Shown here: positions 3,070 through 51,315 of the stretch, one piece after another
How the letters are laid out: every line of letters starts with the position of its first letter
Numbering within the stretch: position 1 is the stretch's first letter
NCBI RefSeq assembly: GCF_019059575.1
Contig: NW_024881792.1
Coordinates: 186,001-250,000, forward strand
Length of the DNA stretch: 64,000 nucleotides
Origin: Amphibalanus amphitrite
Taxonomy: Eukaryota; Arthropoda; Thecostraca; Balanomorpha; Balanidae
Direction: 5' to 3'
Program-made: the position numbers and the translations under genes
The notes under the pieces: model-generated
Told to the model about the DNA's origin: nothing
Databases searched by the model: none
Seen by the model: the letters and a program-made list of their open reading frames with translations, nothing else

Positions 3070-3403
3070 TTAGTGCGGCGATTGAGACGAATTCGGCTCG
3101 ACGCTCCAGCGTTGCGAAACACCCGTGTCTATGAAGGATACGCCGATACGTCCCCCAGCTTCAAGCCCTTCCCGCCCCCCCCCCCCGCCCCGTCCCAACG
3201 GTGTTGGCCGAGATTGGGGTTTGGTATTTTAACCCGCGCCCGGCTGGGGGTCCTGGATTTCCACGCCCTGCTGGGGGGGGGGGGGTGTTTGAACACCCCC
3301 CCCCTTGTAACTCGGCTCCTGGGCCACGTAGCGATACGCGGAAGGCGATGTTCGAAAGAGCGTAAAAAATAATGACGAAATCACTTCGGTCAATTTTTTG
3401 GTC

Positions 3404-3421
3404 AGGTCAAAGGTCAGGTCA
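3404..3421 (+). promoter_or_regulatory. nuclear-receptor DR1 plus overlapping half-site inside element A1
   Basis: AGGTCA-A-AGGTCA (3404-3416) is a perfect direct repeat with 1-bp spacing, followed by a half-site overlapping by one base (3416-3421). The same arrangement occurs in copy A2 at 10603-10615. DR1 sites are bound by RXR heterodimers and HNF4-type receptors in animals. Activity here is inference only. Confidence 0.4.
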
Positions 3422-3786
3422 CCAGAGGTCATTGAAGGCAAAATTTCGCCGATTTCCAGGTCGAATGTCGAAAATTTCCAAGAAGCCCACGCATAACTCG
3501 GGAACTAATAGAGCTACAGCGCCGCGGAAAAGCGCATTCGATAGCCCTATTAACGCCCTTTCTGAGTAATCCTCTCAGATTTGACCTAACGGCAACGGTT
3601 TTGCCTGCAGGGGGCAAAAACTGCAAAAATAGCCGATTTTTTCGAAAACAGTTTTTCTGCAATAACTTTTGACTTAAGCCTTGTACGAGCTTACTGTTAC
3701 CGGCATCGTGTTCCTCTCGTCAAGACGCATCGAATGAACTATAACTTGACCTTGAAAGGTCAACTTGAAAATTTGACCTCAGGTCA

Positions 3787-3798
3787 AGGTCATGACCT
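3787..3798. promoter_or_regulatory. inverted half-site palindrome AGGTCATGACCT
   Basis: This is a perfect IR0 palindrome of the AGGTCA half-site, overlapped on the left by TCAAGGTCA (3784-3792), which matches the extended monomer site used by FTZ-F1/ERR-type receptors. It is repeated exactly in copy A7 at 50668-50679 and is degenerate in copy A2. It lies within a transposon, so it is a potential rather than a demonstrated site. Confidence 0.4.
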
Positions 3799-4430
3799 GA
3801 CCGGAAAGGGTCATGTTGCATATCAGTCGATCCGTATCGTCGAGCTGAACACATCTAAGGCGTTTTCATCGCTCTAGCATGCCTCTATCAAAAGTTATTT
3901 GCGAAAAACTGTTAGATACCATTCGTGACCTAAGATGACCTCAGGGCATAAACAAGGGTCACGGACACCATTTTCAAGTTCAGTGCGTCTTAACCACTTG
4001 TAATTCGGTGTTTGGGAGTGTTTATAATGTCTTTCATCCAAAAGAGGCGCATTTCAATTTTCTCCCATTGACTTATAATGGGGAGGTCGCAAAATTGACC
4101 TGACCTTAGGTCATCGATATCAAAATTCTGAGATATACATTTTGTACATGCTATTGCTCTTAGCAATCGCTGAAAGTTTCAAAGCGATCGGTCACTCGGT
4201 GTAGCTATGACAGACATTGAAAGTTTTTATGAGGTGAGGTCACTTCAAGTGACCTGGTGACCTGACCTTGAATGACCTTGGTCTGAAATTTTCACAACAT
4301 GTGTAGAATTGATGTATGATAAGGTGTACCAAAAACGGCGGCGCTCCGCGCCGCCGTTTTTGAGATATTCGCGAAAAACCACAAGGGGGGGGTGTTCAAA
4401 CACCCCCCCCCCCAGCAGGGCGCGGGTTAA

Positions 4431-10271: not shown

Positions 10272-10440
10272 TAAGATACATCGATGATATCTTCGGCATA
10301 TGGACCCATGGATCACTATTACTCAACCAATATTTCGATTTTATAAATAGCTTTCACCCAATCCTACGCTTTAGCATTGACAGGACAGACAACACCCCAT
10401 CCAGTGAGATTGCCTTTTTAGACACCCTTATCATCATTAA
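10272..10440 (+). pseudogene. Penelope RT fragment with YIDD catalytic motif
   Basis: It reads LRYIDDIFGIWTHG, the motif C box with both Asp residues retained, then FDFINSFHPILRFS and SEIAFLDTLIII. Penelope RTs show the same order (Y.RY.DD.F..W, then F..LD..I). The piece ends at TTAA (10437-10440), where a TTAA element is inserted. Confidence 0.85.
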
Positions 10441-11607
10441 CCCGCGCCGGGCCGGTGCTCTGAGATTCCGTGCCGGGCCGGGGGGGGTGTCTGAACACCC
10501 CCCTTCTAACTCGGCTCCTGGGCCACGTAGCGACACGCGATAAGTGACAATTGAAAGAACGTCCAAAATAAGGACGAAAACACTTCGGTCATTTTTTGGG
10601 TCAGGTCAAAGGTCAGGTCACCAGAGGTCACCAAAGGTCAAATGTTCACTATTTCAACATTTTGGAAACTGCCAACGGCTATCTCGGGAACCGATAGAGC
10701 TAGAACGCCGCGGAAAAGCGCATTCGATAGCCCTTTTACAGACTTTTCTGAATAATGTTCTCAGACTTGACCTCAGGTCAACGGTTTAGCCTCCAGAGGG
10801 CAAAAACTCCAAAAATAGCCGTTTTTACGAAAAACGTTTTTTCGGCAGTAACTTTTGACTCAAAAGAGCCATGACATTACTTTTGCCACCATCGTGTTCC
10901 TCTCGTCGAGACGCGTTGAATGAACTATAATTTGACCTTGAAAGGTCAACTTGAAAATTTGACCTCAGGTCAAGGTCGTGACCTGACCGGAAAAGGTCAT
11001 GTTGCATATCAGTCGATCCGCAACGTCGAGCCGAACACATCTAAGGCGTTTTCAGCGCTCTAGCAAGTCTCTATCAGAAGTTATTAGCGAAAAACTGTTA
11101 GATTCTGTTCGTGACCTGAGATGACCTCGGGGACATAACGAGGGGTCACAGTTGCCATTTTCCGGTTCAGTGTGTCCATTTTACCTACATCTCGATGTTT
11201 GAGAGTGTCTAGAATAGCGTTCGTGCAAAACAGACGCTTTTCAATTTTCTCCCATTGACTTATAATGGAGAGGTCGCAAAATTGACCTGACCTTAGGTCA
11301 CCGATATCAAAATTCCGAGATATAAATTTTATAGATAATGTTGCTCTAATCAATCGTTGAAAGTTTCAAGGCAATCGATCAGTCGGTGTAGCTATGACGA
11401 GCATTCTTATTTTTTCTGAGGTGAGGTCACTTGGCGTGACCTGGTGACCTGACCTAAGGTGACATGGGTCTGAAATTTTCACGACATGTGCGGAAATAAT
11501 GCACGAACAGGTGTGCCAAAAGCGCCGCCGTTTTTGAGATATCTGCGAAAAATCGCAGGGGGAGGGGGTGCTCAAACACCCCCCCCCCCCGGCCCGGCGC
11601 GGGTTAT
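10437..11607 (+). mobile_element. TTAA-flanked piggyBac-like MITE, family A (copy A2) in Penelope
   Basis: TTAA lies at 10437-10440 and a mutated TTAT at 11604-11607; the element is 10441-11603. The left end is bipartite, with GCCGGGCCGG twice, 26 bp apart. The right end reads inward CCCGCGCCGGGCCGGGGG once. A G-run/TGTC..AACA/C-run hairpin is just inside each end. Removal of the element and one TSD lets the Penelope frame run on in phase (TLIII into ESGSYITELYIKP). It is closely similar to A7 (50149-51311) and to A3 in inverse orientation. Half-sites are dense and there is no gene. Confidence 0.85.
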
Positions 11608-16758: not shown

Positions 16759-17759
16759 TTAACCGGCGCACCGACGTGGGTCTGCGCCAACTTCGTACCG
16801 ACGGGGGGGCGGATGACCGCCCCCTGAGATCTCGAGAACAAAGCAAGATAGCGACAAGCGGTAAACAGCAATCGGATACGCACGCATAAGGTCTACAATT
16901 TTTACAAGGGTCATTTTCAGGTCAGGTCAAAGATGACGTCACAGGGGTCAAAAAAGTCAAAATGGTGGCGCAAGATATGACGAGTTTTTCTCGAATAATT
17001 TTCGAATTCGTCAAGATAGGAACAAACAAGGGGCATCATCGTGATCCTCTCGTCAATCCGCATAGAAAGATATATATGTTGACCTCAAAAGGTCAAGGTC
17101 AAAGGTTGTCCTCAGGTCACGTGACCTCGAGGTCATCATGTATATCATTCGATGCGTCTTGACAAGCTGAACATAATGAGACCATCCGCGCGGCTGTATC
17201 TTGTTCCTGTACGGAGTTATTGGCAAAAAACCTTTGGTGACCTTTGATGACGTCACATGACCTTACAGCTGCCCAACAGCAAAACAGACCTCAAGGTAGT
17301 GAAGGTTGATCGTATATGAAGTCATGTATGGTATATGGGGTCATTCCGACCCGTTTTAGTGGTAAAAACAGGGAGTTGATTTTTCCCCCATTGACTTATA
17401 ATGGGGAGGTCGAGAAATTGACCTGACCTTAGGTCATCGATATCAAAATTCCGAGATAAACAAATTGTAGCTAATAATGACCTAATAACATCCTGCGACT
17501 TTCAAATGAGGCCTCCGACATCTACTGTAGCTCTGGCACGGTGACAAAGTTGCAAAAAAGTGACTTGAGGTTGGATCATTCAAAGTGACCTGGTGACCTG
17601 ACCTTAAAACTTAGGAGGATAAAACTTGCACACCATGTGTAAATTTTATAAGAAAATAGTCGTACTAAACTTCGCGGCGCTACGCGCCGTGGTTTTCCCG
17701 CTATTTGCGAAAAACCTCAGGGGGGGCGGATATCCGCCCCCCGTCGGTGCGCGTGTTGA
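16759..17759 (+). mobile_element. TTAA-flanked piggyBac-like MITE, subfamily iv (A'1)
   Basis: TTAA is at 16759-16762; the right copy has decayed to TTGA (17756-17759). The left end is bipartite, with ACCGACG twice, 27 bp apart. The right end, read inward, has GCGCACCGACGGGG. The right subterminal hairpin is GGGGGGCGGATATCCGCCCC. The interior has dense TGACCT/AGGTCA, two TGACGTCA-like sites and the CATTGACTTATAATGG block near 17387. It is a close relative of 24605-25613. Confidence 0.8.
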
Positions 17760-17775: not shown

Positions 17776-18720
17776 GGCCATGTTTTTTCGAGACACGCTG
17801 ACGATAGAGAGCAGCTGAAACGTGGCATACCTGCCCTTTGATTCAAGCCGGATCTAGTGACACCAACCGCATTTTCCGGTCAGGTCAGGTCCCTGACCTA
17901 TGACGTCATAAGTGAACCTCTGCACGCAACGCCCTCAGTGCCAGAGAAGCTTTCACAGGGAGGACCCAGTATCCTCCAGAGGTTTCACAACTTGTATATC
18001 TCGGATTTTTCCTAACGGTCACATGAGGTCAGGTCGGTCACTTTACCTCACCGCCTTTAAGTCAACAGGGAAAAATCAAAGCTGCTATTTTAGCGCCGGG
18101 AACGATTTGAAACTATATCAAGCACACGAAATCGCGATTTCATGCACTCCTCGCAAGGTCTGATGCTTCACTTTTGCATTCATTTATGACGTCACTTGGG
18201 TCATAAGAGTTTTTCGTCAATAACTCCCGATCAAATTGAGCTAACGGGTCCGAAAAGCCACCAATGGACTCAGGAAGTCCTGCCGAATCGAGTGATATGC
18301 AGCACGACCTCCTTCGACCAATTTCGTGACCTGGGGGGCGCTGACCTGACCTTGATCCGAGATCCACACCACAAGTTGTCCTCACCCGAACAAAAATTAG
18401 GTATACCATTCGACGTGCCTGAGCGAGGCGAACACGATGATGCCAAAATCGCGTCTCTGGTGGCCGTTTTTTGCGGTTATTTATGAAAAACTGAACCTGT
18501 GCCCTGGGTCACTTGAACTGACCTCAGAGGTCACCGGTTGACCTGAGACCTTAAAATCGGGTACCAGTCACTGTGTCGCGTAACGGCGCACAAACTCGTT
18601 CTTTCTGCGACGCTCTAGCTCCATCAGGGACGAAACGGCGAAGGGGGTCGTACCAACGACCCCCCTCCCCCTCCTCGGCCGGCGCGTATGTAGAAAACTA
18701 ATAGGTCCAGCGAGGGTTAA
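17776..18720 (+). mobile_element. TTAA-element family B, 5'-truncated copy (B1)
   Basis: It matches the second family B copy (20642-21665) from the phrase near CACGCTGACGATAG to the right terminus GGTCCAGCGAGGGTTAA (TTAA 18717-18720), but the left CCCTCGCCGG end is absent and replaced by a short duplicated ATGTTTTTTC motif (about 17762-17790). It contains TGACGTCATAAG and many TGACCT motifs and no coding frame. The right hairpin GGGGGTCGT..ACGACCCCC is intact. Confidence 0.7.
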
Positions 18721-20017: not shown

Positions 20018-21990
20018 TTAACCCTCGCCTGTGTGCGGCGTTTTCCAGCTTCTAATGTGTAGGGGGGAGGGGGTCGGTTGGACCCCCCCCCCTGCCGTTC
20101 GGCCCTGCCCTGCCGTTCGGTTTTTCACGAATAATTCGCGCAAAAGGCGACCGATCACAACGAAACTTTCAGTACCATCGATTTGATCAATGTTGCACAT
20201 ATTCTGAAAATTTCATGACCCTGACCCAAATGACCTTTGACCTCTAACCTGTTTCTCGAGACCATGTTTAGCTGGGAGCGCGATTCAGCGCATGTCGGCT
20301 TACATTATCCGCGCACTTCCAGTCTTTTTTTGTGGTTTTAAACGTTCAGACATGTGAAATGATGTTGGTCCCATGCATTATGGTTGGTTTCAAGGTCACG
20401 TGAAGGTCAGGTCAAGGTCATTGACCTTTGATGACCTCGATTCACTGTTTTGAGTGTTACATGTTTCTATGGCAGTTCTTTGAGCTTATTGCGAATTTGG
20501 CACCTACTTGAACATTTACGAAGTAGTTTTGATGCCTTCGTAACATGTTACGAAGCTGTCAGTGGTGATTGGGACCTACTATGGATAGCCGGCAGGGCGC
20601 CTACTGGTTGCCCTGACCTGACCTGACCCGATCTGGCTTAACCCTCGCCGGCCGAGGGGGGGGGGGCGGGTGCCGCCCCCATAGGGTTTTTTCGGATAGC
20701 TCCGAACACGCTGGCGATAGAAAGCTGAAACTTGGCATACCTGACCTTTGATCCAAGCCGCATCTTTTGACACTAACCGCATTTTTGGGTCTGGTCAGGT
20801 CACTAACCTATGACGTCATAAGTGAACCTCTGCACGGTCTTCAGATGTCGCAACTTCGCAACGCCCTCACTGCCAGAGGAGATGTCACAGGGAAATGAAA
20901 CTTGCAGGATCTAGTATCCAGTATGAGTCCCACAACTTGTATATCTCGGATTTTTCCTAAAGTTCATATGAGGTCAGGTCATTTTCGTGACCTCACCATT
21001 ATAAGTCAATGGGGAAAAATGAAAACTGCTATTCTGGCGCCGGGAACGATCTACAACTATCTCAAGCACACATAATCGTGATTTGATGCACTCCTTGCAA
21101 GGTTAGATGCGTCACTTTTGCAATGTTGACCTTGCGTGACGTCATTTATGACGTCATCAAGGTCATATTAGTTTTTCGTCAATAACTCTTGATCAAATTG
21201 AGCTAGCGAGTCGGGAAAGCTTCCAATGGACTCAGGAAGGCCTGCCGAATCGAATGCTATGCGACATGACCTCTTTCGACCAACTTCGTGACCTGGGGGT
21301 GCTGACCTGACCTTGACCTGAGGTCAACACCCCAAGTTGACCTGACCCGGACAAAAAGTATATCATTCGACGCGCCTGAGCGAGGCGAACACGATGCTGC
21401 CAAAATCGGCGCTCTGCGGCCGTTTTTTGCGAAGTTATTCACCAAAAACTGAACCGTACCTTGGGGCACTTGACCTGAACTCAGAGGTCACCGGTTGACC
21501 TAGGACCTTAAAATCGGGTACCAATCTCTGCGTCTCGTAACGGCGCACACGCTCGTTTTTTCCGCGACGCGCTAGCTCCACCAGAGGCGAAACGGCGAGG
21601 GGGGTCGTACCCGCCCCCCCCCCTCGGCCGGCGCGTATGTAGAAAACCAATAGGTCCGGCGAGGGTTAAATGCATGAAGACATTATCTGTGATCAAAACT
21701 AACATGAAATTCGTGATAAACACCCCGTAGAATCCCATAGCAACCTCACTTTACGAAATTATAACAAGTCCCCATTTTCCCGACTTTTGAGTCATTGACC
21801 TGAGGTCAAAACCAATGACCTAGAACCTTGAAACTGGGTATCATCGGCTTCCCCTCGTCACGGGCAACACGCTCGTTTTTTTTTTCGGCGAAGCTCTAGC
21901 TCAATCAGGGGCCGAACGGCAAGGGAGGGGGGTCCAACGGACTCACTATACATTAGACGCTGGCAAAACACCTATACGAGCGAGGGTTAA
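20018..21990 (-). mobile_element. TTAA-element family C (C1), interrupted by family B
   Basis: TTAA is at 20018-20021 and 21987-21990. The two halves (20022-20637, 21670-21986), read in reverse, match family C copies at 26940-27777 and 36667-37579. Both ends carry a duplicated motif: TGTGT twice 26 bp apart on the left, and CGTAT-like CTCGTATAGG with ATGTATAG on the right. It is therefore an exception to the one-simple-end rule. It contains the perfect palindrome CTTCGTAACATGTTACGAAG at 20536-20555. Confidence 0.75.
20638..21669 (+). mobile_element. TTAA-element family B, intact copy (B2) inside C1
   Basis: TTAA is at 20638-20641 and 21666-21669; the element is 20642-21665. The left end is CCCTCGCCGGCCGAGGGGG (simple). 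The right end, read inward, is CCCTCGCCGG with CGCCGGCCGAGGGG 28 bp later (bipartite). The interior includes CCATTATAAGTCAATGG at 20996-21012, TGACGTCATAAG near 20811 and many TGACCT motifs. Family C is continuous across the TTAA (compare 27245-27260). No gene. Confidence 0.85.
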
Positions 21991-22020: not shown

Positions 22021-24378
22021 TTAACCCGCGCCAAGCCGGGGGGGAATGGTGTTTGAACACACACACACACCCTGCGGTTTTTCGCAGATATTTCAAAAAC
22101 GGCGGCGTGGAGTGCCGCCGTTTTTGGCACACCTGTTTGTGCATCGTTTCCGCACATGTTGTTAAAATTTCAGACCCAGGTCGCCTTAGGTCAGGTCACC
22201 AGGTCACGCCAAGTGACCTAACCTCAGAAAAAAATAAGAATGCTCGTCATAGCTACACCGACTGATCGATTGCCTTCAAACTTTCAGCGATTGATTAGAG
22301 CAACATTATCTATAAATGTTTATCTCGGAATTTTGATATCGGTGACCTAACGTCAGGTCAATTTTGCGGCCTCTCCGTTATAAGTCAATGGGAGAAAATT
22401 GAAAAGCGTCTGTTTTGCACGAACGCTATTCTAGACACTCTCAAACATCGAGATGTAGGTAAAATTGACATACTGAACCGGAAAATGGCGACTGTGACCC
22501 CTCGTTATGTCTCCGAGGTCATCTCAGGTCACGAACAGAATCTAACAGTTTTTCGCTAATAACTTCTGAAAGAGGCGTACTAGAGCGTTGAAAACGCCTT
22601 AGCCCTCGCCCCGTAGGGGCGGGGGGTGAAACGCCCCCCTGTCCTTTTCCGTCGATATCTCCTAAACGGCTGGACTTATCGCCACCAAACTTTCAGGACC
22701 CCTCCGGGCATCAATGATACACATTGTGACAAAAAAACTTTTCCAGAGGCTATGATAGGTTGGCCATAAATGACGTCAGAATGAGTCATGTTCTGTCATT
22801 TTCGACCGAAAAAAGACCTTCGCGAGAAGACCTGTCAGGCCTACAGCTTTGAAGATACAGAAAAATGATGAAAAAAGGTGTAGAATTGACAGGGCTACAA
22901 AACTGGGCTCTCGGATTTTTGAAATTTTTGAGTTTTGACCCTCAAAAATAAAAAAAACAGTTTGTTGGTTATATTAGCCAAAAAATCTAAAAAGTTTTTT
23001 GAGTTTCGTAAAAAAGGGATATATGTGATAGTACCTACCGTCTTCTATCTACATACCAAATTTCAGATCGATATTTCATTCTTTGGCCAAGTTATAGCGA
23101 AAAAACTGTTCAAAAATGATGACGTCAAATTTTCAAACTCAACTTTTGGTAATTCTAGACCTCGTGGAGCAAAACAAAGACCACCATTAGACTCTCCGTG
23201 ACGAGCTGCATCGAATCAATACCCATTTTATGCAAATATAGCAACTTTAAAATTTGACCTAATTTGACCTGACCTTGACCTGACCTTCACCAAAACGTGA
23301 CCTAGGCTGGCCCCAAAGGCTGCCTAACCCACATAATCGCATTTGTCATGTAAAATGGACCATAAAACATGTACACACGACACTTTCATACTGTGACCCC
23401 CGGTGACCTGACCTCGTTGTGACCTGACCTGGTATCAGTGACCTCAGATAGCAAAGTACGTGTTTGACGAACAATGTGCCATCGATGGTTTTCAACAAAT
23501 TACCAATTTACTCGATTTCACAACACATTTCTTGAAATGCCTGTGAACAGTGAAAATCCGACCTTTGACCTAACCTGTGACGTCATCGATTTGACCTAGG
23601 TCAATGAAATTTGGTCACAAGGTAGTTCCCGGGTAGGGCTATCGAACGCCGTTTGAATTTTGAAAATCGGCCGGTAAATTTCCGAGATCTTAGGGGGGCC
23701 GAAACACCCCCCCCCCCTACGGGTGGTAGGGTCCGTCGGTAGCCCTACGGGGCGCGGGTTAGATGTGATCGGCTCGACGTTGCGGATCGACTGATATGCA
23801 ACATGAATCAACATTGTCCGGTCAGGTCATGACCTTGACCTGAGGTCAAATTTTCAAGTTGAATTTTCAAGATCAAATTATAGTTCATTCGACGCGTTTC
23901 GACGAGAGGAGCACGATGTTGGCACAAATAATGTCATGGCTCTTTTGAGTCAAAAGTTATTGCCGAAAAAAAAACGCTTTTCGTAAAAACGGCTATTTTT
24001 GGAGTTTTTTCCCTCTGGAGGTTAAACCGTTGACCTGAGGTCAAATCTGAGAGCATTATTCAGAAAGACCTGTAAAAGGGCTATCGAATGCGCTTTTCCG
24101 CGGCGCTGTAGCTCTATCGGTTCCCGAGATAGCCGTGGGCAGTTTCCAAAATGTTGAAATAGTCAACATTTTACCTTTGGTGACCTCTGGTGACCTGACC
24201 TTTGACCTGACCCAAAAAATGGACCGAAGTGTTTTTGTCCTTATTTTGGACGTTCTTTCGATTGCCGCTTACCGCGTGTCGCTACGTGGCCCAGGAGCCG
24301 AGTTAGAAGGGGGGGGGGGTGTTTGGACACCCCCCGGCCCGGCGCGGAATCTCAGAGCACCGGCCCGGCGCGGGTTAA
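22021..24378 (-). mobile_element. TTAA-element family A (A3), interrupted by family D
   Basis: TTAA is at 22021-22024 and 24375-24378. In reverse it matches A2 and A7. The bipartite end (GCCGGGCCGG motif twice) is on the right. It is interrupted at 22603-23758 by another TTAA-class element. A (CA)n tract replaces part of the left subterminal hairpin (about 22058-22073). Confidence 0.85.
22599..23762 (+). mobile_element. TTAA-class element family D (D1) with TTAG target duplication
   Basis: TTAG, not TTAA, is duplicated at 22599-22602 and 23759-23762. Element 22603-23758 begins CCCTCGCCCCGTAGGGG and, read inward from the right, CCCGCGCCCCGTAGGG with CCCGTAGGGG again 28 bp later. Outer element A3 reads through one TTAG (CGCC-TTAG-ATGTG; the paralogue A2 has CTAAGGCG here on its own strand). 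The interior is TGACCT-rich and related to 44426-45613. Confidence 0.8.
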
Positions 24379-26935: not shown

Positions 26936-27781
26936 TTAACCCTCGCCCGTATTGGTGTTTTGCTAGCCTCGAACGTATGGGGGGGGGGGGTTCGTTGGAA
27001 CCCCCTTGCCGTTTGGCCCCTTATCGAGCTAGAGCTTCGAGAAAAAACGAACGTGTTGCTCGTGACAAGAGGAAGCCGGTGATACCCAAGTTTAAAGTCC
27101 TAGGTCATTGGGTTGACTTTCCAGGTCAGGTCAATGACCCAAAAGTCGGGAAAATCGGGACCTGTTAGAACATCGTAAAGTGAGGTTGCTACGGTTTTTC
27201 GGGGTGCTGATCACGAATTTCATGTTAGTTTTGATCACAGATGATGTCTTAATGCATTTAGGCTTGGTCAGGTCAGGTCAGGCCAACCAGTAGACATCCT
27301 GCGAGGTGTTCAATACTAGTACGTGTCAACCGTTACTGGCAGCTTCGTTACATGTTACGAAGACACCAAAACGACTTCGTAAATGCTCAAATGGTTGCTA
27401 AATTCGAAATCAGCTCCTAAAACTAGCATAGAAACATGTAAAACTCGAAGAAGGGAACTAAGGTCATCAAAGGTCAGTGACCTGACCTGACTTTCAGGTG
27501 ACCTTGACACCCACCATAATGCATGGGACCGGTATCATATCACATGGCTGAACGCTTGAAACCGCAAAAAGACTGCAAACGCGCGGTTAATACGAGCCGA
27601 CATACGCCGGATCGCGATTCCGGCCAAACATGGTCTCGATAAATAGGCCACAGGTCAGCGTTCATTTGGGAAAGGGTCATGAAATATTAAGGGTAGGTGT
27701 AAAATTGATTGACTCGAGGGTACTGAAAGTTTCATCGGTCCGTTCGATCCCCAACCCTCCCCCACTACCGGCGAGGGTTAA
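26936..27781 (+). mobile_element. TTAA-element family C (C2)
   Basis: TTAA is at 26936-26939 and 27778-27781. The left end is bipartite (CGCCCGTAT, then AACGTATGGGG; CGTAT repeated at 26 bp). The right end reads inward CCCTCGCCGGTAGTGGGGG. The left hairpin is GGGGTTC-GTTG-GAACCCC. It carries the CTTCGTTACATGTTACGAAG near-palindrome at 27343-27362 and many TGACCT motifs. Confidence 0.8.
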
Positions 27782-31619: not shown

Positions 31620-32619
31620 TTAACCCGCGCCCTGCTGGGGGGGGGGTGTTTGAACACCCCCCTCCTGTGTTTTTTCACAAATGTCTCAAAAACGGCAGCG
31701 CGGAGCGCCGCCGTTTTTGGCACACCTTATAATACATTTTGTACATACTATTGCTCTTAGCAATCGTTGAAACTTTCGAAGCGATCGGTCACTTGGTGTA
31801 GCTATGGCGGACATGGAAACTTTGTATGAGGTGAGGTCACTTCAAGTGACCTGGTGACCTGACCTTAAATGACCTTGGTCTGAAATTTTCAAAACATGTG
31901 TAGAATTAATGTATTATAAGGTGTGCCAAAAACGGCGGCGCTCCGCGCTGTAAACTATACTGAGATAAACTCTGCATATCTCAGAGTTTTGATATCGATG
32001 ACCAAAGGTCAGGTCAATTTTGCGACCTCCCCATTATAAGTCAATGGGAGAAAACTGAAAGGCGCCTCTTTTGGACCAAAGCCATTATAAACACTCCCAA
32101 ACACTGAATTACAAGAAACTGAGACACATTGAACATGAAAATAGTATCCGAGACCCCTGTTTATGCCCCTGAGGTCATCTCAAGTCACGAATAGTATCTA
32201 ACACTTTCGAAAAAATCGGTTATTTTGGCAGTTTTTGCCCCCTGCAGGCAAAACCGTTGGCGCTAGGTCAAATCTGAGAGGATTATTCAGAAAGGGCATT
32301 AATAGGGCTATCGAAGTCGCTTTTCCGCGGCGCTGTAGCTATATCGGTTCCCGAGTTATGCGTTGGCTTCTTGGAAACTGTCGACATTTGACCTGAAAAT
32401 CGGCGAAGTTTTGCCTTTCACCACTGGTGACCTGACCTTTAGCCTGACCAAAAAAGTGACCGAAGTGATTTCGTTATTATTTTTGGCGCTCTTTCGAACG
32501 CCGCCTTCCGCGTATCGCTACGTGGCCCAGAAGTCGAGTTAGAAGTGGGTGTCCAAACACCCCCCCCCCCCCCCCAGCAGGGCGTGGAAATCCAGGACCC
32601 CCAGCGGGGCGCGGGTTAA
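31620..32619 (-). mobile_element. TTAA-element family A (A5), same subfamily as A1
   Basis: TTAA is at 31620-31623 and 32616-32619. In reverse it matches A1. The right end is bipartite (inward: CCCGCGCCCCGCTGGGGG, then CGCCCTGCTGGGG 27 bp later) and the left is simple (CCCGCGCCCTGCTGGGG). A local rearrangement near 31935-31965 shortens the interior by about 200 bp relative to A1. Confidence 0.8.
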
Positions 32620-32727: not shown

Positions 32728-33000
32728 TTAACCCGCGTCGTGCTGATGGCCTAAGTTTTCCGTGTCGTGCTGGGGGAGGCGTTTTCAAGTCCCCGTCTAA
32801 CTCGGCTCCTGGGTCAAAGGTCACGTCACCAGAGGTCATCAAAGGTAAAATGCTGCCTATTTCAACATTTTCCCAAACACTCAACGCATAACTCGGGAAC
32901 CAATAGAGCTACAGCGCCACAGAAAAGCGCATTCAACAGCTCTTTCAAAGGCCTTTCCGAGTGCTGTTGTTAGATTTGACCTCAGGTCAAAAATAAATCG
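32728..33000 (+). mobile_element. 3'-truncated TTAA-element family A relative (A6)
   Basis: TTAA is at 32728-32731. The bipartite left end carries its own motif, GTCGTGCTG, twice at 27-bp spacing. Family A interior follows (ACTCGGCTCCTGGGTC, CAATAGAGCTACAGCGCC) and stops near 33000, where a family C terminal fragment (about 33020-33064, CAATACGGGCGAGGG then TTAA) takes over. Confidence 0.7.
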
Positions 33001-33095
33001 TGACGTTAGCAACAACGCACGATACGTTAGACGCTGGCAAAACACCAATACGGGCGAGGGTTAAATCATATGTGAACCAACCAGTTTTTGAGTGG

Positions 33096-34012
33096 TTAAC
33101 CCTCGCCGGCACAGGCCATTTTGCGTCCTTTGACGGCACAACGGGGGGGGGGGTTGGTACGCCCCCCCTCGCGTTTGGCCCCTGATCGAGCTAGAGCTTC
33201 GCGGAAAAAAACGAGCGTGTTGCCCGTCACGAGAGGAAGCCGATGATACCCAATTTTAAGGTCCTAGGTCATCGGGTGACCTTCCAGGTCAGGTCAATGA
33301 CCCGAAAACCGGGAAAATCGGGACCTGTTAGAAAGTCGTAAAGTGTGGCTGCTATGTGGTTTTCCGGGATGCTGATCACGAATATCGTGTTAGTTTTGAT
33401 CAGAGATGATGTTTTTAAGCATTTAGACCAGGTCGGGTCAGGTCAGGTCAGGTCAACCGGTAGGGTAGGGGTTGTGACGGGTATTCGTAATACGTGTCAA
33501 CCGCCTCTGGCAGCTTCGTAACATGTTACGAAGGCACCAAAACTACTTCGTAAATGTTCAAATGGTTGTTAAATTCGAATTCAGCTCCAAAAACTAGCCT
33601 AGAAACATGTAAAACTCGAAAAAGTGAACCGAGGTCACCCGAGGTCACCAAAGGTCAATGACCTTACCTGACCTTCAGGTGACCTTGACACCCACCCTAA
33701 TGTATGGGAGCAACATCAAATCACATGTTTGAACGTTTGAAACCACGAAAAGCTTGCAAACGCGCGGCTAATGCGAGCCGACATACGCCGAATCGCGATT
33801 TCGGCCAAACATGGTCACGGAAAAGAGGTCACAGGTCAAAGGTCATTGGAGTCAGTGTCATGAAATTTTCAGGGAACGTGTAAAATTGATCAATGCGAGG
33901 GTACAGAAAGTTTCGTCGCGATCGGCCGCTTTTTACGCGAGTTATTCGCGAAAAACCTTAGGGGGGGGGGGGTGCATCACCCCCCCCCACCCCCGGTGCC
34001 GGCGAGGGTTAA
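33096..34012 (+). mobile_element. TTAA-element family C relative (C3) with its own terminal motif
   Basis: TTAA is at 33096-33099 and 34009-34012. Left: CGCCGGCACAGG, then CGGCACAACGGGG (CGGCAC repeated at 27 bp). Right, inward: CCCTCGCCGGCACCGGGGG. The perfect palindrome CTTCGTAACATGTTACGAAG is at 33514-33533. It occupies the same site in M2 (GAGTGG-TTAA-CCTAGC) that family A copy A3 occupies in M1 at 22021. Confidence 0.85.
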
Positions 34013-35661: not shown

Positions 35662-36662
35662 CATTGTGAGAAATAGTTTTAGTGTCTATGCTACATATTT
35701 TGCGACCGATACCCCCTGAACCCGATTACGACTCGCTGACGAAGTTTTGTAAATACAATTTGAAAGCTCCGACCCGAACGATTTCTTGTGGAGTGAAGCT
35801 CTCATTCACTTATTGCATTAACAAACTCCACAGTCCACATCAAATCTTTATGTGTAACTACGCTGTTGGTGGCGGTAAACACCCATTTGGATGTCGGCGG
35901 TGACGCCTTATGGTTGAGCTAACCTGACCCGACCTACCCAAAATGCACGGATGCATCGTCTTTGATCAAAACTAGCACGAAATTCGAAATCAGAACCCCG
36001 ATAAAAAACTCACTAACAACCTCATTTTAAAAAGTTAAAATAGGACACGATTTCCCTGACTTTTAAGTCATTTACCCGAAATGAAATGCCAACTAATGAC
36101 CGGCGATCTTAAAATCGGGTATCATCGGCTTCCTTTAGTTACGGTAGGACGTTCATGTTTTCGCGAAGCTATAGTTCGGTTAGAGACTGAACGATTGGGG
36201 ATCCAACAGAATTCCCCTTCCCCCCCGCAATTATATGCTAGCGGCTGAAAACGCGGTGACGCAAGGGGTTTTAAAGAGCATACAAACACATAAGTCCATA
36301 ATCCTCGCTCGTACTGGTGTTTTGTCAGCCGCGAACGTATATGGGGGAGGGGGTCCGTTGGAGACATAGTTTGTTACGAGAGACGCCCAATTCGAGGTTT
36401 AAAGTCCATGCTATTAAAAGCCTAATTTCAGGTATTTAAAATAATCTTGAACCGACCTGTGACCTCGGAACTCCACTTCAAGGTACTCATCAGAAGCCTC
36501 TCGTAGCGTTATTTTGTTTGCTGCCTCGCCCGTTTCGCTGCGCCTCGAGCTATGGGCTATGGGCTATGGGTTCTCGAGCTATGGGCTGGGAAAGTTTACC
36601 CCCTCCCCTCCCACCCCCACCCAGCAAGTGGTGTGTGGCGAAATACTCCAGCAACTGCCGGG

Positions 36663-37583
36663 TTAACCCTCGCCCGTATTGGTGTTTTGCCAGCCTCGAA
36701 CGTATAGGGGGTTGGACCGCCCCCTTGCCGTTTGGCCCCTGATCGAGCTAGAGCTTCGAGAAAAAAAAGAGCGTGCTGCTCGTGACGAGAGGAAGCCGGG
36801 GTGATACCCAATTTTAAGGTCCTAGGTCATTGGTTGACTTTCCAGGTCAGGTCAATGACCCACAAGTCTGGAAAATAGGGACCTGTTAGAACATCGTAAA
36901 GTGAGGTTGATGAGGGTTTTTTCGGGGTGCTGATCACGAATATCGTGTTAGTTTTGATCACAAATGATGTCTTAATGCATTAAGGCCAGGTCAGGTCAGG
37001 TCAGGCCAATCAGTAGACGTCCTGCCAAGTGCCAGGTATACATAGTACGTGTCAGCCGTTACTGACAGCTTCGTAACATGTTATGAAGACACCAAAACAA
37101 CTTCGTAAATGCTCAAATGGTTGCTTAATTCGAAACCAGCTCCAAAAAGTAGCATAGAAACATGTAAAACTCGAAGAAGTGAACCTAGGTCATCAAAGGT
37201 CAATAATATGACCTGACCTTCGGGTGACCTTGACACCCACCATATGCATGGGACCAACATCATATCACATGTTTGAATGCTTGAAACCGCAAAAATACTG
37301 CAAACGCGTGGCTAATACGAGCCGACATACACCGAATCGCGATTCCGGCCAAACATGGTCTCGAAAAATAGGCCACAAGTCAAGGCTCATCTGGGACAGG
37401 GTCATGAAACTTTAAGGGTAAGTGTACAATTGATACTCGAATTTAATTAATTGATAATTGATTGATAGACTCGACAGTACTGAAAGTTTCATCGCGATCA
37501 ACCGCTTTTTACGCGAGTTATTCGCGAGAAACCATGGGGTGGGGGTCCGTTCAACCCCCCCCCCCTCTACGGGCGAGGGTTAA
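36663..37583 (+). mobile_element. TTAA-element family C (C4)
   Basis: TTAA is at 36663-36666 and 37580-37583. The left end is bipartite (CGCCCGTAT with AACGTATAGGGG); the right reads inward CCCTCGCCCGTAGAGGGGG. It has a decayed palindrome at 37069-37088. It is the orthologous insertion to C2 in the paralogous arm of M1. Confidence 0.8.
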
Positions 37584-42834: not shown

Positions 42835-44425
42835 GCCGCGTCCCGTGAGACCTGCGAGGGTCTGCGCTGCTCGGTTTCAGCTCACGCCGGTAACGCTCAC
42901 GGAGCTGTCGGCTGCAGTCAGAGGCATGAGGAGCTCGGGCGCCGTCGGTGTGGACGGGGTCCCCTTGCTCGCTGTGAGAAAGTGCTGGCCAGTGATCGGT
43001 CCTCGGCTACTTCGCATCGTGAATGCATCGCTGGTCTCTGGCGTGTTTCCCTCGGCGTGGAAAACGGCGTGCGTCGTGCCGATTTTCAAAGCTGGGGACC
43101 GCACGGTGCCTAGCAATTTTAGACCTATATCTTTACTGAGTGTCTTATCAAAAGTGACCGAAAAGGTTGTTTGTAACCAGCTGGTGAGCTATCTCGTGTG
43201 CAACGACATTCTCTCTGACAGCCAATATGCGTATCGGCCTGCACACTCGACTGAGGACGCCCTGATCGACGCTGTCACCTGGGTGTCAAACAACACCGAC
43301 CAGGGCCTGCTGTCATCGATCACAGCAGTAGATCTCAGTAAAGCTTTCGGCAGCGTCGATCACGGCGTCCTCATCGAGAAACTGGCCTGGTGTGGAGTAC
43401 CGTGCCACTGGTTTGATAGCTACCTCACTGATCGGAGCCAGATGGTGCGAGGAGGCACCTTGACCTTACCAGTGACGCATGGGGTGCCGCAGGGGTCACT
43501 GGTGGGACCCGTCCTATTCAGTGTCCTAACGAATGACTTTGCAAATTTTATCCCTTTCGGCAAAGTCATTTCTTATGCTGACGACACGAACATTCTGGAC
43601 AGGGCTCATCCAACAGATGACAGCCTTTCCGACCTCAAAGACCGGGTCGAGGACACGCTCTCAGCGCTCAAAAGATGGTTTTCACGTAACTCTCTCAAAA
43701 TGAACGCGGCCAAAGCGAACTTCATGATCTTTGGAACAAAACAGTCTGTAAATAAGCATTCAGCTCACCTGACACTAAGTGTCTCAGGATCCGATGTGCA
43801 GCCGTCAACAAGCATGAAAATTCTAGGCGTTACCTTCGACCAAACTCTGTCCTGGGAGAGTCACGTTTCGAGTGTAGTAGGCAAGTGTTTTGGCTCTCTC
43901 ATCAGTCTAAATCGCTTCCGTCACCACTTCACCCCTGCGGCACTCCAGCTCATCATTCAGGCCCATGTAATGTCGCATGTTACCTACTGCTTACCTGTGT
44001 GGGGAGGCGCATGTAAGACGCAGCAGGCACGAGTGCAAAAGGTACTCAATTTTGCAGCCAGAGTGATCACTGGCAAGCGAAAAAGAGACCACATCTCGCC
44101 AGCCATGCGCTCGCTCAAGTGGCCCACGTTCCAGGAGATGGTGACCGAGCGCGACCTCATCAACGTCCACAGGGCCATTCATGATGATCATGCACCGGCC
44201 GCGCTCCGCTCTCTCTTTGTGCCCCGAAACCGAGTATCGGTCAGGGACACCCGAGCTCATGAGCGCTGCCTGCAACTGCCTCGCTGCAGACTGGAAGCAA
44301 CTAGGCGTTCTTTCGTGTACCGAGCCGCCTCGGCGTGGAACGCATTACCGGTGTCGGCGCTGGAGTGTCCGACCCGCGGTGCGTTCAGGGCCCAGCTGAG
44401 GCGGCGCCGTGTGGGGGGTACTTAA
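42815..44425 (+). pseudogene. non-LTR reverse transcriptase (jockey/CR1-like)
   Basis: An open frame of about 536 codons in phase with the lost endonuclease. In order: GAVGVDGVPLLAVRK; FRPISLLSVLSKVTEK; QYAYRPAHSTEDAL; motif A ITAVDLSKAFGSVDH (first Asp kept; the usual second Asp of KAFD is Gly); THGVPQGSLVGPVLF (motif B); SYADDTN (motif C, both Asp kept); LKILGV-like MKILGVTFDQ; HVTYCLPVWGG; and a final SAWNALP...R.QLRRR tail. Most catalytic residues survive, so inactivation came mainly from truncation, slippage and insertion. The stop TAA is provided by the TTAA target copy of element D2. Confidence 0.9.
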
Positions 44426-45617
44426 CCCGCGACCTGGTGGGGGGGGCTATTTTTTGCCCCCCCCCCCTCCAGACTTTTCGATATATCTCCAGAACCACTG
44501 CGCCGATCGTCACCAAACTTTCAGTACCCTCCCGGACATCAATTTTACACATTGTGACCAAAAATTTTTCCAAAGGCTATGATAGGTTGGCCGGAAATGA
44601 CGTCAGAGTGACGTCATGTTCTGCCGTTTTCGACCCAAAAAAGGGTTTCGCGGGAAGAGCTGTCAGGCCTATAGCTTTGAAAATACAGAAAAATGATACG
44701 GACATAAAAGCTGTAGAATGGACAGGGCTACAAAACTGCTATCTCGGATTTGTGAAATTTTTGGATTTTGACCCCCAAAATCAAAAATAGATTTTTTGAA
44801 TATAATAGCCAAAAAATCCAAAAAGTTTTTTGAATTTCGAAAAACCGGAATATATGTGATAGTCCTTACCGCCTTCTATCTACATACCAAATTTGAGATC
44901 GATACCTCTTTTTTTGGCCAAGTTATAGCGAAAAAACTGTTCAAAATTGATGACGTCAAATTTTCAAACTCAATTTTAAGCAATTCTAGACCTCGTAGCG
45001 CAAAACAAAGACCACCATTAGACTCCCCGTGACGAGCTGCATCGAATCAATACCCATTTTATGCAAAAATATCAACTTTGAAATTTGACCTTTTTTGACC
45101 TGACCTTGACCTGACCTCCACCAGAAAGTGACCTAAACCGTACCTGATGGTCTTATAACCAACACCATTGAGTTGGAAATGAAAAACTGGCCATAAAACA
45201 TGCATCGCATAACCTTAGTAAAGTTGGGTTCATGTGGTGACCCTTGGTGACCTTTGGTGACCTGACCTGTGACCTGACCTGGTATGACCAGTGACCTCTA
45301 ACAGCAACATATCTACTAGGCAACTGACGCCCTATCGCTGATTCCCGACAAAATGCGTTTTCCTCGGTGTTATAGCGCATTCCCTAGAAGAACCGTGAAC
45401 GGTGAAACATTTCATCTTTGACCTGACCTGTGACGTCACCGGTGACCCCGAGGTCAATAAAATTTGGTTTCCCTCGACAAATTTGACAGGCCTTTCGAAC
45501 GCCGTTTGAATTTTTCGGATCCGTCCAGTAGTTTCGGAGATACGAGGGGGGGCAAAAAATAGCCCCCCCCCCCTTCCAGGTCGCGTTATAAACAGACCCC
45601 ACCAGGGCGCGGGTTAA
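44422..45617 (+). mobile_element. TTAA-class element family D (D2)
   Basis: TTAA is at 44422-44425 and 45614-45617. Left: CCCGCGACCTGGTGGGG (simple). Right, inward: CCCGCGCCCTGGTGGGG with CGACCTGGAAGGGG (CCTGG repeated at 26 bp). Subterminal G-run/C-run blocks surround GCTATTTTTTGC and GCAAAAAATAGC at the two ends, complementary to each other. It is related over its length to D1 and has no coding frame. Confidence 0.85.
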
Positions 45618-45831: not shown

Positions 45832-45832
45832 C

Positions 45833-47740: not shown

Positions 47741-49226
47741 ACAGCACCGGCTTCTGAGCGCGCAACGCGAGGACCCGGTGTTCAGGCGGCTCAAGGAGCT
47801 GGCAGGCAACACAGGGAACCCTCCCACACGGCAGCAGCTCCGTGATCAGTCCGGCGAGTGGTCCTACCTGGGGAGCAGGTGGACGGAGGTGACAGAGGAG
47901 AATGGCCTTCTCGGTCTCCGAGGGAAGCAGCCCGACGAACAATTTAAGGTCCTCGTCCCAGAAAAACTGAGGGAGGACGTGCTGAAGTGGAGGCACGAGC
48001 ACCCATCATCAGGACACATGTGCACGCAGAAAACAGTGAACAGACTGTTGGGGCGCTTCAGCTGGCCAGGGATGTGTCACCAAGCCAAGATGTTCTGCAG
48101 GTCATGCGTCCTTTGCCAAAGACGAAGCAGACCGACGCCGAGCAGGCGCGCGCCCTTGATCACCGAGACGGCATCCCACCCATTTGAGAGAGTCGCCCTA
48201 GACATCACGGAGATGCCGTTGTCCTCTGATGGCAACAAGTACGCCCTAGTTGTCATGGACTACTTCAGCAAGTACGTCCGGATCTATCCCATGAAGGACC
48301 AGAAAGCTGTGACAGTGTCAGAGTGTTTGATGGACTGGGTGTACGAGCTGGGCGTCCCGGAGCGCATCCACTCGGATCAAGGACCGCAATTCGAATCGAT
48401 CGTTTTTCAAGAGCTCTGCAAACAGCTTGGCATCAGAAAGACCAGAACAACTCCATACCACCCACAGAGTGACGGCATGGTGGAGCGGTTTATGCGTACG
48501 TTGAAAGATATGGTTGCAAAATACGTCGACGCACAAGGTCTGACGTGGGACAAAGGCGTGAAAGTCTACGCCATGGCGTACAACTCGGCGGTTCACAACA
48601 CGACCGGATATTCACCATTCTTCCTCGTTCACGGCTACGAGCCTCGTCTACCCATGGACGTTCAGTTCGCCACGCCTCGGCCGTTGGTGGACGTGCAAAG
48701 CTTCCCCGAGGAGCGGCGGAGAGGGTTGGAGAAAGCATTCGAAGATGTCCGTCGAGCCTCGAAGAAGGCTGCATCAGAGTCAGCAGAAAGATACGGCAAG
48801 GCCACCAGACATATTTCCTACCAAGAAGGCGACAAGGTGTGGATACGCGATCACACCGCCGCTGTCGGCGGAAAACCCAAACTGGGCCTGCCGTACAAAG
48901 GACCAGGAACCGTCATCAGAGCGGTTGGAGAAAGGGGGAAGGAGGTGACGTATGCCGTACGTCTGCCTGGATCGAAGGACCGGATCGTCCACCATAACGA
49001 TCTGAAGCCCCTTATCCAGCGGGGAGAAACCCGACGAAGCCCCCAGAACGATGGAGAAGAGGGCATGCCGCACCTAGCTAGGTCGGCACACCAGCAAATC
49101 AGCAACGGGGGACGGGATGCGAGACCTCAAGACGAGGAAAGGGCTTCGGCCAAAATCAGAGTTTGGAATGGGTCACAAACCATGCCCCCGCGTCCCCCGT
49201 CACTGCATCACTGCATGACCAAATGA
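47691..49226 (+). pseudogene. pol: gypsy Pol: integrase
   Basis: The frame overlaps the RT/RNase H frame in another phase. The HHCC zinc domain is visible (HEHPSSGH, then FCRSCVLCQRR). Catalytic residues are Asp in VALDITEMPL, Asp in IHSDQGPQFE and Glu in SDGMVERFMRTL, i.e. the DD35E triad. A GPF/Y-like C-terminal module follows (VWIRD..., LPYKGPGTVI, VHHNDLKPL). An Asp/Asn/Pro-rich tail runs to 49226, with a further open frame to 49399. There is no env gene. The domain is complete; the break from RT by a frameshift, as well as the large insertion upstream, makes the element non-functional. Confidence 0.9.
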
Positions 49227-50144
49227 TGACAAACCCACCTGACACAGAACACCCTGTCTCCGACAACCCGGACAACCACCAAACAAACCATGCAGAGGAC
49301 GGAGACAGCGTCGACGAGCAGCTTGGGGAGACTGAAGCTGGAGCCTCTGCGCCACTGCACACAGCCACTATCCGGGTTCAGAAGTGGCCAATACCCTAAT
49401 TTTCGACAAATTTCAAAGCGTGCTTTTCTCACATTTTCTGGTCGTAAATTGATCAGACTGTATAAAATATCATCCAGAAAAAAATATTACTCATTCTGGC
49501 ACAGATTGGTGGGCTCCCAAAGTACACCGTTTTGTTTTGCTCCGTGAGACCGAACTTGTGCTGCGATTTTCATGTTAATGTTGACGAGTCTCCTGTCATA
49601 ATCTTTGCTTGAAAATGCGGAAGTAAGATATCAGCTGAAATGGGAAAATGTGCGGAATCCATTGGTAACAAAAGTGCATCTAAAAAGCTTCCCACTCAGT
49701 AATTGTAAGCTAATTGTTGCACACTTGCACAAAGCAGAGGGACTTGAGGATTTCATATTTATATAGGCCGCCTACCAAAAAACGCACAGCGTGCTTCACA
49801 TCGAGACAACGTCCATAACATAAACCGTACAATTGTGATGCATTTGCTGAAAAAAATTAGGTCGGCATGACACTGCCGGCAAAAGTTATCACAGTTCTAG
49901 TGACGCTAGGTCGCCGCCCGGCCGACCCCGGTCAGGTCGGACGGGCGGCGGCCGCGCAGCTGACGTCTATGCGGTTCGGCAGCTGACCAATCAGCTGCGA
50001 GAGAGGAGCGCGGTCCGTCTAATCGCCCCCGGCAGTTACTTGTGCGGAGGGATGCTCGACGCTCGTGTCGATTACATTTGTTGGTTGTCGATTGTCGATT
50101 GACTTGTTGGTATACTTTCTGGTGACCAATAAATGTACGTTGTC
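49227..50144. other. gypsy 3' flank, LTR not resolved
   Basis: An open tail continues to 49399 in another frame (DNPDNHQTNHAEDGDS). After that no coding sense is visible. TATAAAA at about 49460 and AATAAATG at 50130 could belong to LTR sequences, but nothing here matches the 5' side, so no LTR pair can be called. Confidence 0.4.
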
Positions 50145-51315
50145 TTAACCCGCGCCGGGCCGTTGCTCTGAGATTCCGCGCCGGGCCGGGGGGGGGGGGG
50201 TGTCTGAACACCCCCCTTCTAACTCGGCTCCTGGGCCACGTAGCGACACGCGGTAAGCGGCAATCGAAAGAACGTCCAAAATAAGGACGAAAACACTCCA
50301 GCCAGAGGTCAGGTCACCAGAGGTCACCAAAGGTCAAATGTTGACTATTTCAACATTTTGGAAACTGCCAACGGCTATTTCGGGAACCGATAGAGCTACA
50401 GCGCCGCGGAAAAGCGCATTCGATAGCCCTTTTACAGACGTTTCTGAATAATGTTCTCAGATTTCCTCAGGTCAACGGTTTAGCCTCCAGAGGGAAAAAA
50501 ACTCCAAAAATAGCCGTTTTTACGAAAAACGTTTTTTCGGCAATAACTTTTGACTCAAAAGAGCCATGACATTACTTTTGCCACCATCGTGTTCCTCTCG
50601 TCGAGACGCGTCGAATGAACCATAATTTGACCTTGAAAGGTCAACTTGAAAATTTGACCTCAGGTCAAGGTCATGACCTGACCGGAAAAGGTCATGTTGC
50701 ATATCAGTCGATCCGCAACGTCGAGACGAACACATCTAAGGCGTTTTCAGCGCTCTAGCACGTCTCTATCAGAAGTTATTAGCGAAAAACTGTTAGATTC
50801 TGTTCGTGACCTGAGATGACCTCGGGGACATAACGAGGGGTCACAGTTGCCATTTTCCGGTTCAGTGTGTCCATTTTACCTACATCTCGATGTTTGAGAG
50901 TGTCTAGAATAGCGTTCGTGCAAAACAGACGCTTTTCAATTTTCTCCCATTGACTTATAATGGAGAGGTCGCAAAATTGACCTGACCTTAGGTCACCGAT
51001 ATCAAAATTCCGAGATATACATTTTATATATAATGCTGCTCTAATCAATCGCTGAAAGTTTCAAGGCAATCGATCAATCGGTGTAGCTATGACGAGCATT
51101 CTTATTTTTTCTGAGATGAGGTCTTTTGGCGTGACCTGGTGACCTGACCTAAGGTGACCTGGGTCTGAAATTTTCACAACATGTGCGAAAAAGATGCACA
51201 AACAGGTGTGCCAAAAACGGCGCCGCTCCGCGCCGCCGTTTTTGAGATATTTGCGAAAAACCGCAGGGGGGGGGGGTGTTCAAACACCCCCCCCCCCCGG
51301 CCCGGCGCGGGTTAA
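50145..51315 (+). mobile_element. TTAA-flanked piggyBac-like MITE, family A (copy A7)
   Basis: TTAA is at 50145-50148 and 51312-51315; the element is 1163 bp. It is nearly collinear with A2, with the same bipartite left end (GCCGGGCC motif twice) and simple right end. The GGCGCCGCTCCGCGCCGCC hairpin precedes the right G-run. The half-site palindrome AGGTCATGACCT is at 50668-50679. Its flanks are unrelated to those of A2, so the high similarity suggests recent amplification. Confidence 0.85.

Follow-up and report, generated by a model that had tools for sequence, protein, structure and literature searches.

Family-specific end codes repeated at three sites in piggyBac-type miniature elements of the barnacle Amphibalanus amphitrite

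Introduction

The best described relative of the elements reported here is the T. ni piggyBac transposon (IFP2; LE35/RE63), which, in the parts of the published accounts covered, combines a TTAA target and a CCC tip with a repeat present once at the left end (LE) and twice at the right end (RE), shifted by 27-28 bp, and with a 19-bp palindromic repeat lying 3 and 31 nt from the terminal inverted repeats (TIRs) (PMC7351741, PMC12324416). RE bp 34-63 is approximately a repeat of LE bp 7-35, an end layout that the authors of the structure termed puzzling; in the same partly covered account, contacts are made at bp 2-6 by the catalytic domain and in the major groove of bp 9-14 by the DDBD, a dimer of cysteine-rich domains (CRDs) sits on the palindrome at bp 17-33, and the right end was inferred to carry another, non-catalytic dimer (PMC7351741). 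In cells, randomising the second repeat or lengthening the spacing by 5 bp lowered activity by about half (PMC7351741). Here we describe a stretch of 64,000 nucleotides of the barnacle Amphibalanus amphitrite (assembly GCF_019059575.1, contig NW_024881792.1, positions 186,001 to 250,000 of the forward strand; hereafter the window) which contains 13 elements with ends of this kind, together with the genome-wide swarm to which they belong. T. ni piggyBac already shows the single/double asymmetry and the shift of 27-28 bp; what is new is that many terminal sequences, or codes, are carried on one conserved geometry and have changed in concert. T. ni piggyBac has one such sequence, whereas in the barnacle the core families number at least 17, the palindrome consists of a G-run and a C-run around a variable centre, and the non-coding copies form a large swarm.

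Other systems share part of this organization. As far as the text covered goes, piggyBat of Myotis lucifugus also has a repeated motif with a palindrome, asymmetric ends and an inner non-catalytic dimer, but on the left end its motif recurs every 44 bp (bp 11-16, 55-60 and 99-104) and its right end is without a palindrome (PMC11707139, PMC13405395). The coral CMITEs are likewise TTAA miniature inverted-repeat transposable elements (MITEs), with an internal region better conserved across families than the TIRs and with one family linked to a piggyBac-like element; they differ in being about 100 bp long with TIRs of 13-14 bp, and neither a double end nor a three-site code is described in the text covered (PMC2872659). 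The moth element CsuPLE1.1 shares the asymmetric placement of subterminal inverted repeats, but it is a single element, and repeat diversification is not described in the text covered (PMC4273485). A survey naming A. amphitrite states, in the part covered, that MITEs were excluded (PMC10813416). In the literature covered (open-licence full texts, titles and the beginnings of abstracts) no swarm with concerted three-site codes was found.

Results

Organization of the element ends

The 13 piggyBac-type elements of the window have both ends present and measure 0.85-2.4 kb each; the analysis also covered 9 double ends that are solo or truncated (Table 1). Taking as bp 1 the base directly after the TTAA, the simple end of an element carries a CCC[G/T]CG tip at bp 1-6, a family-specific stretch up to about bp 15 and then, from bp 14-16, a palindrome in which a G-run and a C-run enclose a short family-specific centre. 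At the double end the tip and the family-specific stretch are followed by a spacer, by the same stretch repeated mostly 26-28 bp further inward, and by the palindrome, mostly at bp 40-44 (starting positions refer to ends in which the palindrome could be parsed).

The TTAA elements listed by the first-pass annotation, with coordinates omitting the TTAA itself, proved to be real, and its claim of one motif copy at one end and two, 26-28 bp apart, at the other was borne out in 13/13 window elements (offset 26 in 6, 27 in 5 and 28 in 2); the palindrome inward of the code at both ends, matched between them, is a feature beyond that annotation. The list needed correction in places. The target duplication is TTAA at both ends in 10 of the 13 elements and TTAA on the left with an altered right copy in 2, but the element at 22599-23762 is flanked on both sides by TTAG, and its uninterrupted (empty) site is visible in the copy at 50145-51315; TTAG is listed among the target-site exceptions of piggyBac in the part of the above survey covered (PMC10813416). 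Likewise, the listed elements at 26936-27781 and 36663-37583 both exist but represent a single insertion, duplicated together with its flanks, and are therefore not independent. The segmental duplication itself extends over 26670-28478 versus 36397-38279, in pieces 90-95% identical, with two swarm elements aboard.

For the wider sample, ends were paired in the window and in 50 genomic loci (L010-L059), which gave 45 pairs; 10 were dropped, their ends coming from different or nested elements, and 2 window elements (16759-17759 and 22021-24378) were added by hand, leaving 37 curated elements. The 24 loci that yielded a curated element had been fetched through a match to the double-end pattern described below (in L016 the element used is the neighbour of the match), while the 13 window elements and the list of general-pattern matches are independent of that pattern. 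With an unconstrained search over 8-60 bp and no lean to any offset, the best self-match of the outer 10-mer fell at 26-28 in 35/37 double ends versus 4/37 simple ends; the two exceptions were L017 (36) and L026 (42), and none of the 37 double ends had its best offset at 44 bp, the piggyBat-type step, within this range. Addition of three transposase-bearing elements and of the element in L079 gave 41 two-ended elements, with offsets of 27 (22), 26 (11), 28 (6), 25 (1) and 36 (1), that is, 39/41 at 26-28; ties lean to 27 in this analysis, as in those of the window elements, of the typed ends below and of the other piggyBacs of the genome.

The assembly searched comprises 807.5 Mb in 2,644 contigs. 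The general end pattern TTAACCCKCGN{4,34}HGGGGG had 80,897 matches versus 23 for its reversed form, and the double-end pattern 22,466 versus 11; these figures count matches, so that one end may score twice, they are lower bounds for repeats, and both patterns require the CCC tip. From these match numbers the swarm may be put, roughly, at some tens of thousands of elements. The 100 general-pattern matches listed were bimodal in length when tallied by hand (22-27 or 47-50 bases, except one of 42), and the shorter class includes a few double ends in which the outer copy merges with a G-run (e.g., C1:536054). Among 50 distinct typed double ends taken from the genome pattern lists, 41 had their offset at 26-28, and a match of at least 6/8 at this distance was found in 27/50 versus 2.3% of shuffles. 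The first 100 of the 1,527 double ends with the code CGTAT, tallied by hand from the listed coordinates under a pattern permitting a spacing of 16-46, lay at 26 (85), 25 (8), 27 (3), 28 (2), 24 (1) and 30 (1). In the window, the pattern TTAACCCKCGCN{5,11}GGGGGG had 25 overlapping matches, and 0 in 100 dinucleotide shuffles. The only simple-end match in viral contigs, on an IMG/VR contig, was judged to be a chance hit.

Agreement of the code at the three sites

We compared the code at the simple site with the outer and inner copies of the double end, using one element per code (n=13). Simple codes agreed with their own double end in 8.2 versus 5.7 of 10 letters for the inner copy and in 8.8 versus 5.2 for the outer one; the own double end was the unique best fit for 10/13 (inner) and 11/13 (outer) codes, and 0/100,000 permutations reached as good a three-site match. 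Across 20 simple-end cores, bp 10-13 were the most variable at all three sites, bp 9 and 14 somewhat less so, and bp 7-8 varied mainly in the inner copy, while agreement among the three copies at bp 11 and 12 held in 18-20 of 20 comparisons. On the core, defined as bp 9-13 after inspection of the codes, outer and simple sites were identical at 85/100 positions versus 38 on average and at most 60 under permutation; of these 20 cores, 9 rest on one curated element each, and 3 of those are decayed copies of others, the folding of which leaves 17 families. The palindrome centres are matched as well, at 0.88 between own ends versus 0.53 across families (14 families having a parsable centre at both ends; 0/20,000 permutations). 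Genome-wide, an outer CGTAT is accompanied by an inner CGTAT in 1,527 matches and by an inner TGTGT in 0, and matched TGTGT double ends do occur, with 4 among the general-pattern and 1 among the double-end-pattern matches listed.

A stretch resembling GGTTTTTCGCGAATA recurs just inside the simple-end palindrome in many families with different codes and, by eye, in none of the double ends inspected. Sixmers resembling AGGTCA/TGACCT are abundant, by eye and uncounted, in element bodies across families, in direct and inverted orientation (e.g., 3400-3420 and 4250-4290).

Concerted change between related elements

Seven overlapping pairs of related elements with different codes, picked for close bodies and sharing some members, were compared: 4/7 were fully concerted, 2 partly and 1 not. 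The bodies of L025 (GGCAC), L044 (CGTAT) and L055 (TGTGT) share 92.9-95.1% identity; in the three pairs, 9, 6 and 12 of 15 core bases are different, always through one and the same substitution at the outer, inner and simple sites. L029 (CTGCT) and L050 (GGGCC), with a body identity of 86.2%, are also fully concerted. As a control with the same code, L044 and the window element at 36663-37583 differ at 1/15 core positions on bodies 87.6% identical. Identical change at three separated places is unlikely under neutral drift, which suggests that either recognition or an exchange of ends must keep the three sites matched. Together with the permutation tests and the counts for CGTAT, these pairs uphold the concerted diversification proposed by the first-pass annotation.

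Transposases between the same ends

The piggyBac transposase family (PF13843) gave 116 scored matches in the assembly. A search for transposases whose own ends carry the codes, as the first-pass annotation had suggested, turned up three lower-ranking matches between swarm ends, designated C44, C702 and C33, each with a different code. The C44 element is 3,975 bp long and has CGACC at the double end and CGCCT at the simple end; the C702 element, 53-63% identical to C44 in two pieces, belongs to the CGTAT family and has ATAA flanks on both sides; the C33 element has a transposase 38% identical to that of C44 and the code CTGGT. The transposases of C33 and C702 are known from search matches, and the ends of these elements were read. 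Copies of C33 with almost equal score occur on C431 and C257, while in C527, C1173 and C171 the C-terminus differs from that of C44. L045, a miniature element with the C44 code, is 90.4% and 92.5% identical to the C44 element over 395 and 295 aligned end bases.

Compared with solved relatives, the C44 transposase is closest to that of T. ni piggyBac (6x67, 251.8 bits; piggyBat 9c0f, 110.4 bits) and, by eye, has an Asp aligned at all three T. ni catalytic aspartates; the C-terminus of the transposase P0001 is, also by eye, rich in cysteine. An A. amphitrite protein named piggyBac transposable element-derived protein 4-like matches one transposase of the assembly at 98% identity, with 84% of the query covered.

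The 30 best transposase loci (L060-L089) were rejected as mobilisers of the swarm: 26/30 bear one or more ends of a different type (TTAACCCATTA or the like), and in the remaining 4 no ends were found within 1.5 kb. The C531 transposase was rejected for the same role, its flank carrying a TTAACCCAGG end; no end was found within 1.0-1.2 kb of the C72 transposase, and for C778 (57% identical, L087) no end of its own within 1.5 kb. The other-type ends of the 30 loci also served as a negative control: 18/19 distinct ones are without a repeat at 26-28, and one has it, at 6/10.

In L079:7-3825, a piggyBac of the other type, with TTAACCCATTAG ends and a transposase inside, is inserted in a swarm element with the code CCC(T/A)GATGG. 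Nine transposase matches have equal score (258.7) and frame length (604 amino acids), which suggests that the TTAACCCATTAG piggyBac was recently active, independently of the swarm.

Other features of the window

In eight of the 9 solo or truncated double ends the best self-match falls at 26-27, with 5-9/10 letters, in the one at 31578 only against a G-run and so probably by chance; the one at 18720 has its best self-match at 54. Ties in this search lean to 27. The solo double ends at 26868-26939 and 36595-36666 have a TTAA or TTTA close by on the inner side and resemble ends without a body.

Table 1. Positions, strands and code sites of the elements and double ends in the window (offset between outer and inner copies in brackets).
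Position	Strand	Feature	Sites and remarks
3229..4430	+	element, code GCCC(T/G)GCTGG	outer 3238-3247, inner 3265-3274 (27), simple 4412-4421
10437..11607	+	element, code GCCGGGCCGG	outer 10446-10455, inner 10472-10481 (26), simple 11589-11598
16759..17759	+	element, code CACCGACGG, right end decayed	outer 16768-16777, inner 16795-16804 (27), simple 17741-17750
18630..18720	-	truncated double end, GGCCGAGG family	inner extent approximate; best self-match outside 26-28
20018..20108	+	truncated double end, TGTGT family	offset 26, 5/10; extent approximate
20638..21669	-	element, code GCCGGCCGAG	simple 20647-20656, inner 21623-21632 (28), outer 21651-21660 (deviating: GCCGGACCTA)
21900..21990	-	truncated double end, CGTAT family	offset 26, 6/10; extent approximate
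22021..24378	-	element, code GCCGGGCCGG, split by 22599-23762	simple 22030-22039, inner 24334-24343 (26), outer 24360-24369
22599..23762	-	nested element, code CCCGTAGG, TTAG duplication	simple 22608-22617, inner 23716-23725 (28), outer 23744-23753
24601..25617	+	element, code CACCGACGG	outer 24610-24619, inner 24637-24646 (27), simple 25599-25608
26868..26939	-	solo double end, code AGTTGCTGG/ACTTGCTGG	offset 27; TTAA common with adjoining element 26936-27781
26936..27781	+	element, code CGTAT	outer 26945-26954, inner 26971-26980 (26), simple 27763-27772 (decayed, deletion near end)
31488..31578	-	decayed double end related to GCCGGGCCGG family	inner copy unclear; extent approximate
31620..32619	-	element, code GCCC(T/C)GCTGG	simple 31629-31638, inner 32574-32583 (27), outer 32601-32610
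32728..32977	+	truncated element, double-end code GTCGTGCTG	offset 27; end coordinate approximate
32975..33064	-	truncated double end, CGTAT family	offset 26, 6/10; extent approximate
33096..34012	+	element, code CGGCAC	outer 33105-33114, inner 33132-33141 (27), simple 33994-34003
36298..36380	+	truncated double end, CGTAT family	offset 26, 5/10; extent approximate
36595..36666	-	solo double end, TTGCTGG code	offset 27; duplicate of 26868-26939
36663..37583	+	element, code CGTAT, duplicate of 26936-27781	outer 36672-36681, inner 36698-36707 (26), simple 37565-37574
44422..45617	-	element, code CCTGG	simple 44431-44440, inner 45573-45582 (26), outer 45599-45608
50145..51315	+	element, code GCCGGGCCGG	outer 50154-50163, inner 50180-50189 (26), simple 51297-51306

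The window also contains, at 40198-49226, a Ty3-type gag-pol (gag, protease, reverse transcriptase, RNase H and integrase) apparently interrupted twice, by an endonuclease and reverse transcriptase of the type without long terminal repeats and by the swarm element 44422-45617, the TTAA of which overlaps the end of the reverse transcriptase frame. Tandem repeats are located at 9400-10060 (unit of about 18 bp; extent by eye), 38836-39299 (about 58 bp), 56426-56711 (about 8-12 bp) and 62773-63277 (about 49 bp). Rfam and tRNA scans of the window returned no matches.

Discussion

We consider it very probable that the swarm consists of non-coding miniature elements of T. ni-like piggyBac transposons, the code of which is read by the transposase. 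The features of the piggyBac superfamily are found here (a 4-bp TTAA target duplication, a CCC tip and, in same-ended elements, a DDD transposase of PF13843), as are those of T. ni-like ends, with one copy of the motif at one end, two at the other and a palindrome directly inside it at both. The barnacle ends fit the T. ni map, with the conserved tip at bp 1-6, the variable core at bp 9-13, a palindrome beginning at bp 14-16 and a shift of 26-28, and on this analogy we conclude that the DDBD would find its address in the core, reading it at three places in each synapse, and the CRD in the palindrome. The recognition function that the first-pass annotation had assigned to the motifs is thus backed by homology, bp 9-13 corresponding to bp 9-14 under the T. 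ni DDBD.

Following the T. ni structure, solved by cryo-electron microscopy, the catalytic domain would hold bp 2-6, the DDBD would read bp 9-14 in the major groove and two CRDs would bind the palindrome. One transposase dimer would join the two tips, i.e., the simple and outer sites, and a second, non-catalytic dimer would occupy the inner site and the palindrome of the double end. A single protein surface would in this way read three copies of the core, so that a shift in recognition would require all three to shift together. The families have a common geometry with different cores and palindromes, three of the codes are borne by the ends of three transposase lineages, and we infer that each code may be the exclusive address of its own enzyme.

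Several observations weigh against this explanation. Three of the seven related pairs are concerted partly or not at all: 3229/50145 and 44422/L047 (86%) differ at 8/15 core bases, with concerted change at only 2/3 positions, and L045/L048, with bodies 94.7% identical, differ at 9/15 with no substitution common to the three sites. Moreover, although the three sites match in most families, as the first-pass annotation had claimed for all, one of them is off in some. In the GGCCGAGG family (20638-21669) the outer copy GCCGGACCTA agrees with the simple copy in only 6/10 letters (inner versus simple 10/10); the outer site of the GGCCG family deviates (3/5 core letters, 4 curated copies), outer and simple sites of the CATGT family agree in 2/5 (1 curated copy), and the two cores of the C44 family are 3/5 alike. 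Odd offsets occur in 3/50 typed double ends at 34-36 and in 6/50 at 21-25 or 32. The apparent element L057:51-895 differs between its ends in both code and palindrome, and was left out as two elements. Finally, the C44 and C702 copies read are probably broken, since the former departs from the P0001 frame near the C-terminus and the latter is spread over two frames. Deviating copies and odd offsets could persist because the loss of activity may be about half, as in T. ni.

The strongest competitor concerns the route by which the codes changed and is compatible with a recognition function. Whole ends could have been swapped, through gene conversion or template switching during post-excision gap repair, so that bodies were re-addressed in blocks; we regard such an exchange as possible, while leaning against it. 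It would account for L045/L048, in which the double-end spacers differ along with the codes on nearly identical bodies, and in the coral CMITEs, too, as far as the text covered goes, conservation is higher in the internal regions than in the TIRs (PMC2872659). In L044/L055, however, the double-end spacers are still alike by eye, and two point substitutions, identical at the three separated sites, set the core of one apart from that of the other. That slippage or local conversion keeps the three copies alike, without selection and without any protein reader, seems to us very improbable: the outer and inner copies are indeed just 26-28 bp apart, as such a process would favour, but the simple copy, equally well matched, lies at the far end of the element (mostly 0.8-1.2 kb away, up to 4.7 kb in C33), nearly all ends of the other piggyBacs of the genome (18/19) do without the repeat, and the core coincides with bases contacted in T. 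ni piggyBac.

TTAA target duplication is common to piggyBac, Kolobok and Sola3. The swarm could in principle belong to one of the latter two superfamilies, with which this duplication is its only likeness, but we give this next to no credence, as three same-ended elements hold PF13843 piggyBac transposase sequence and the tip is CCC; all three transposases found in same-ended elements are piggyBac, in searches that were not aimed at Kolobok or Sola3 transposases.

Returning to recognition by a T. ni-like transposase, a more specific version of it appears to us quite possible, and we put it forward tentatively. The address would consist of two modules, the DDBD core at three sites and the CRD palindrome at two, which change separately: the CTGCT and GGGCC families have the GTGTTTGAACAC palindrome in common, and the C33 and L079 elements share GCCATTTTGGC with different cores. 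Because the modules change separately on conserved bodies, mutually exclusive piggyBac systems may coexist in this genome, and the swarm could be used as a natural covariation screen giving the recognition code of the DDBD.

The geometry has been kept while the letters were replaced in at least 17 families, which argues for a constraint on the spacing and on the three-fold matching, not on the letters, and points to bp 9-13 as the specificity core. The families offer candidate transposase/end pairs for genome engineering which may not cross-react, and miniature elements could change their master by altering three short sites.

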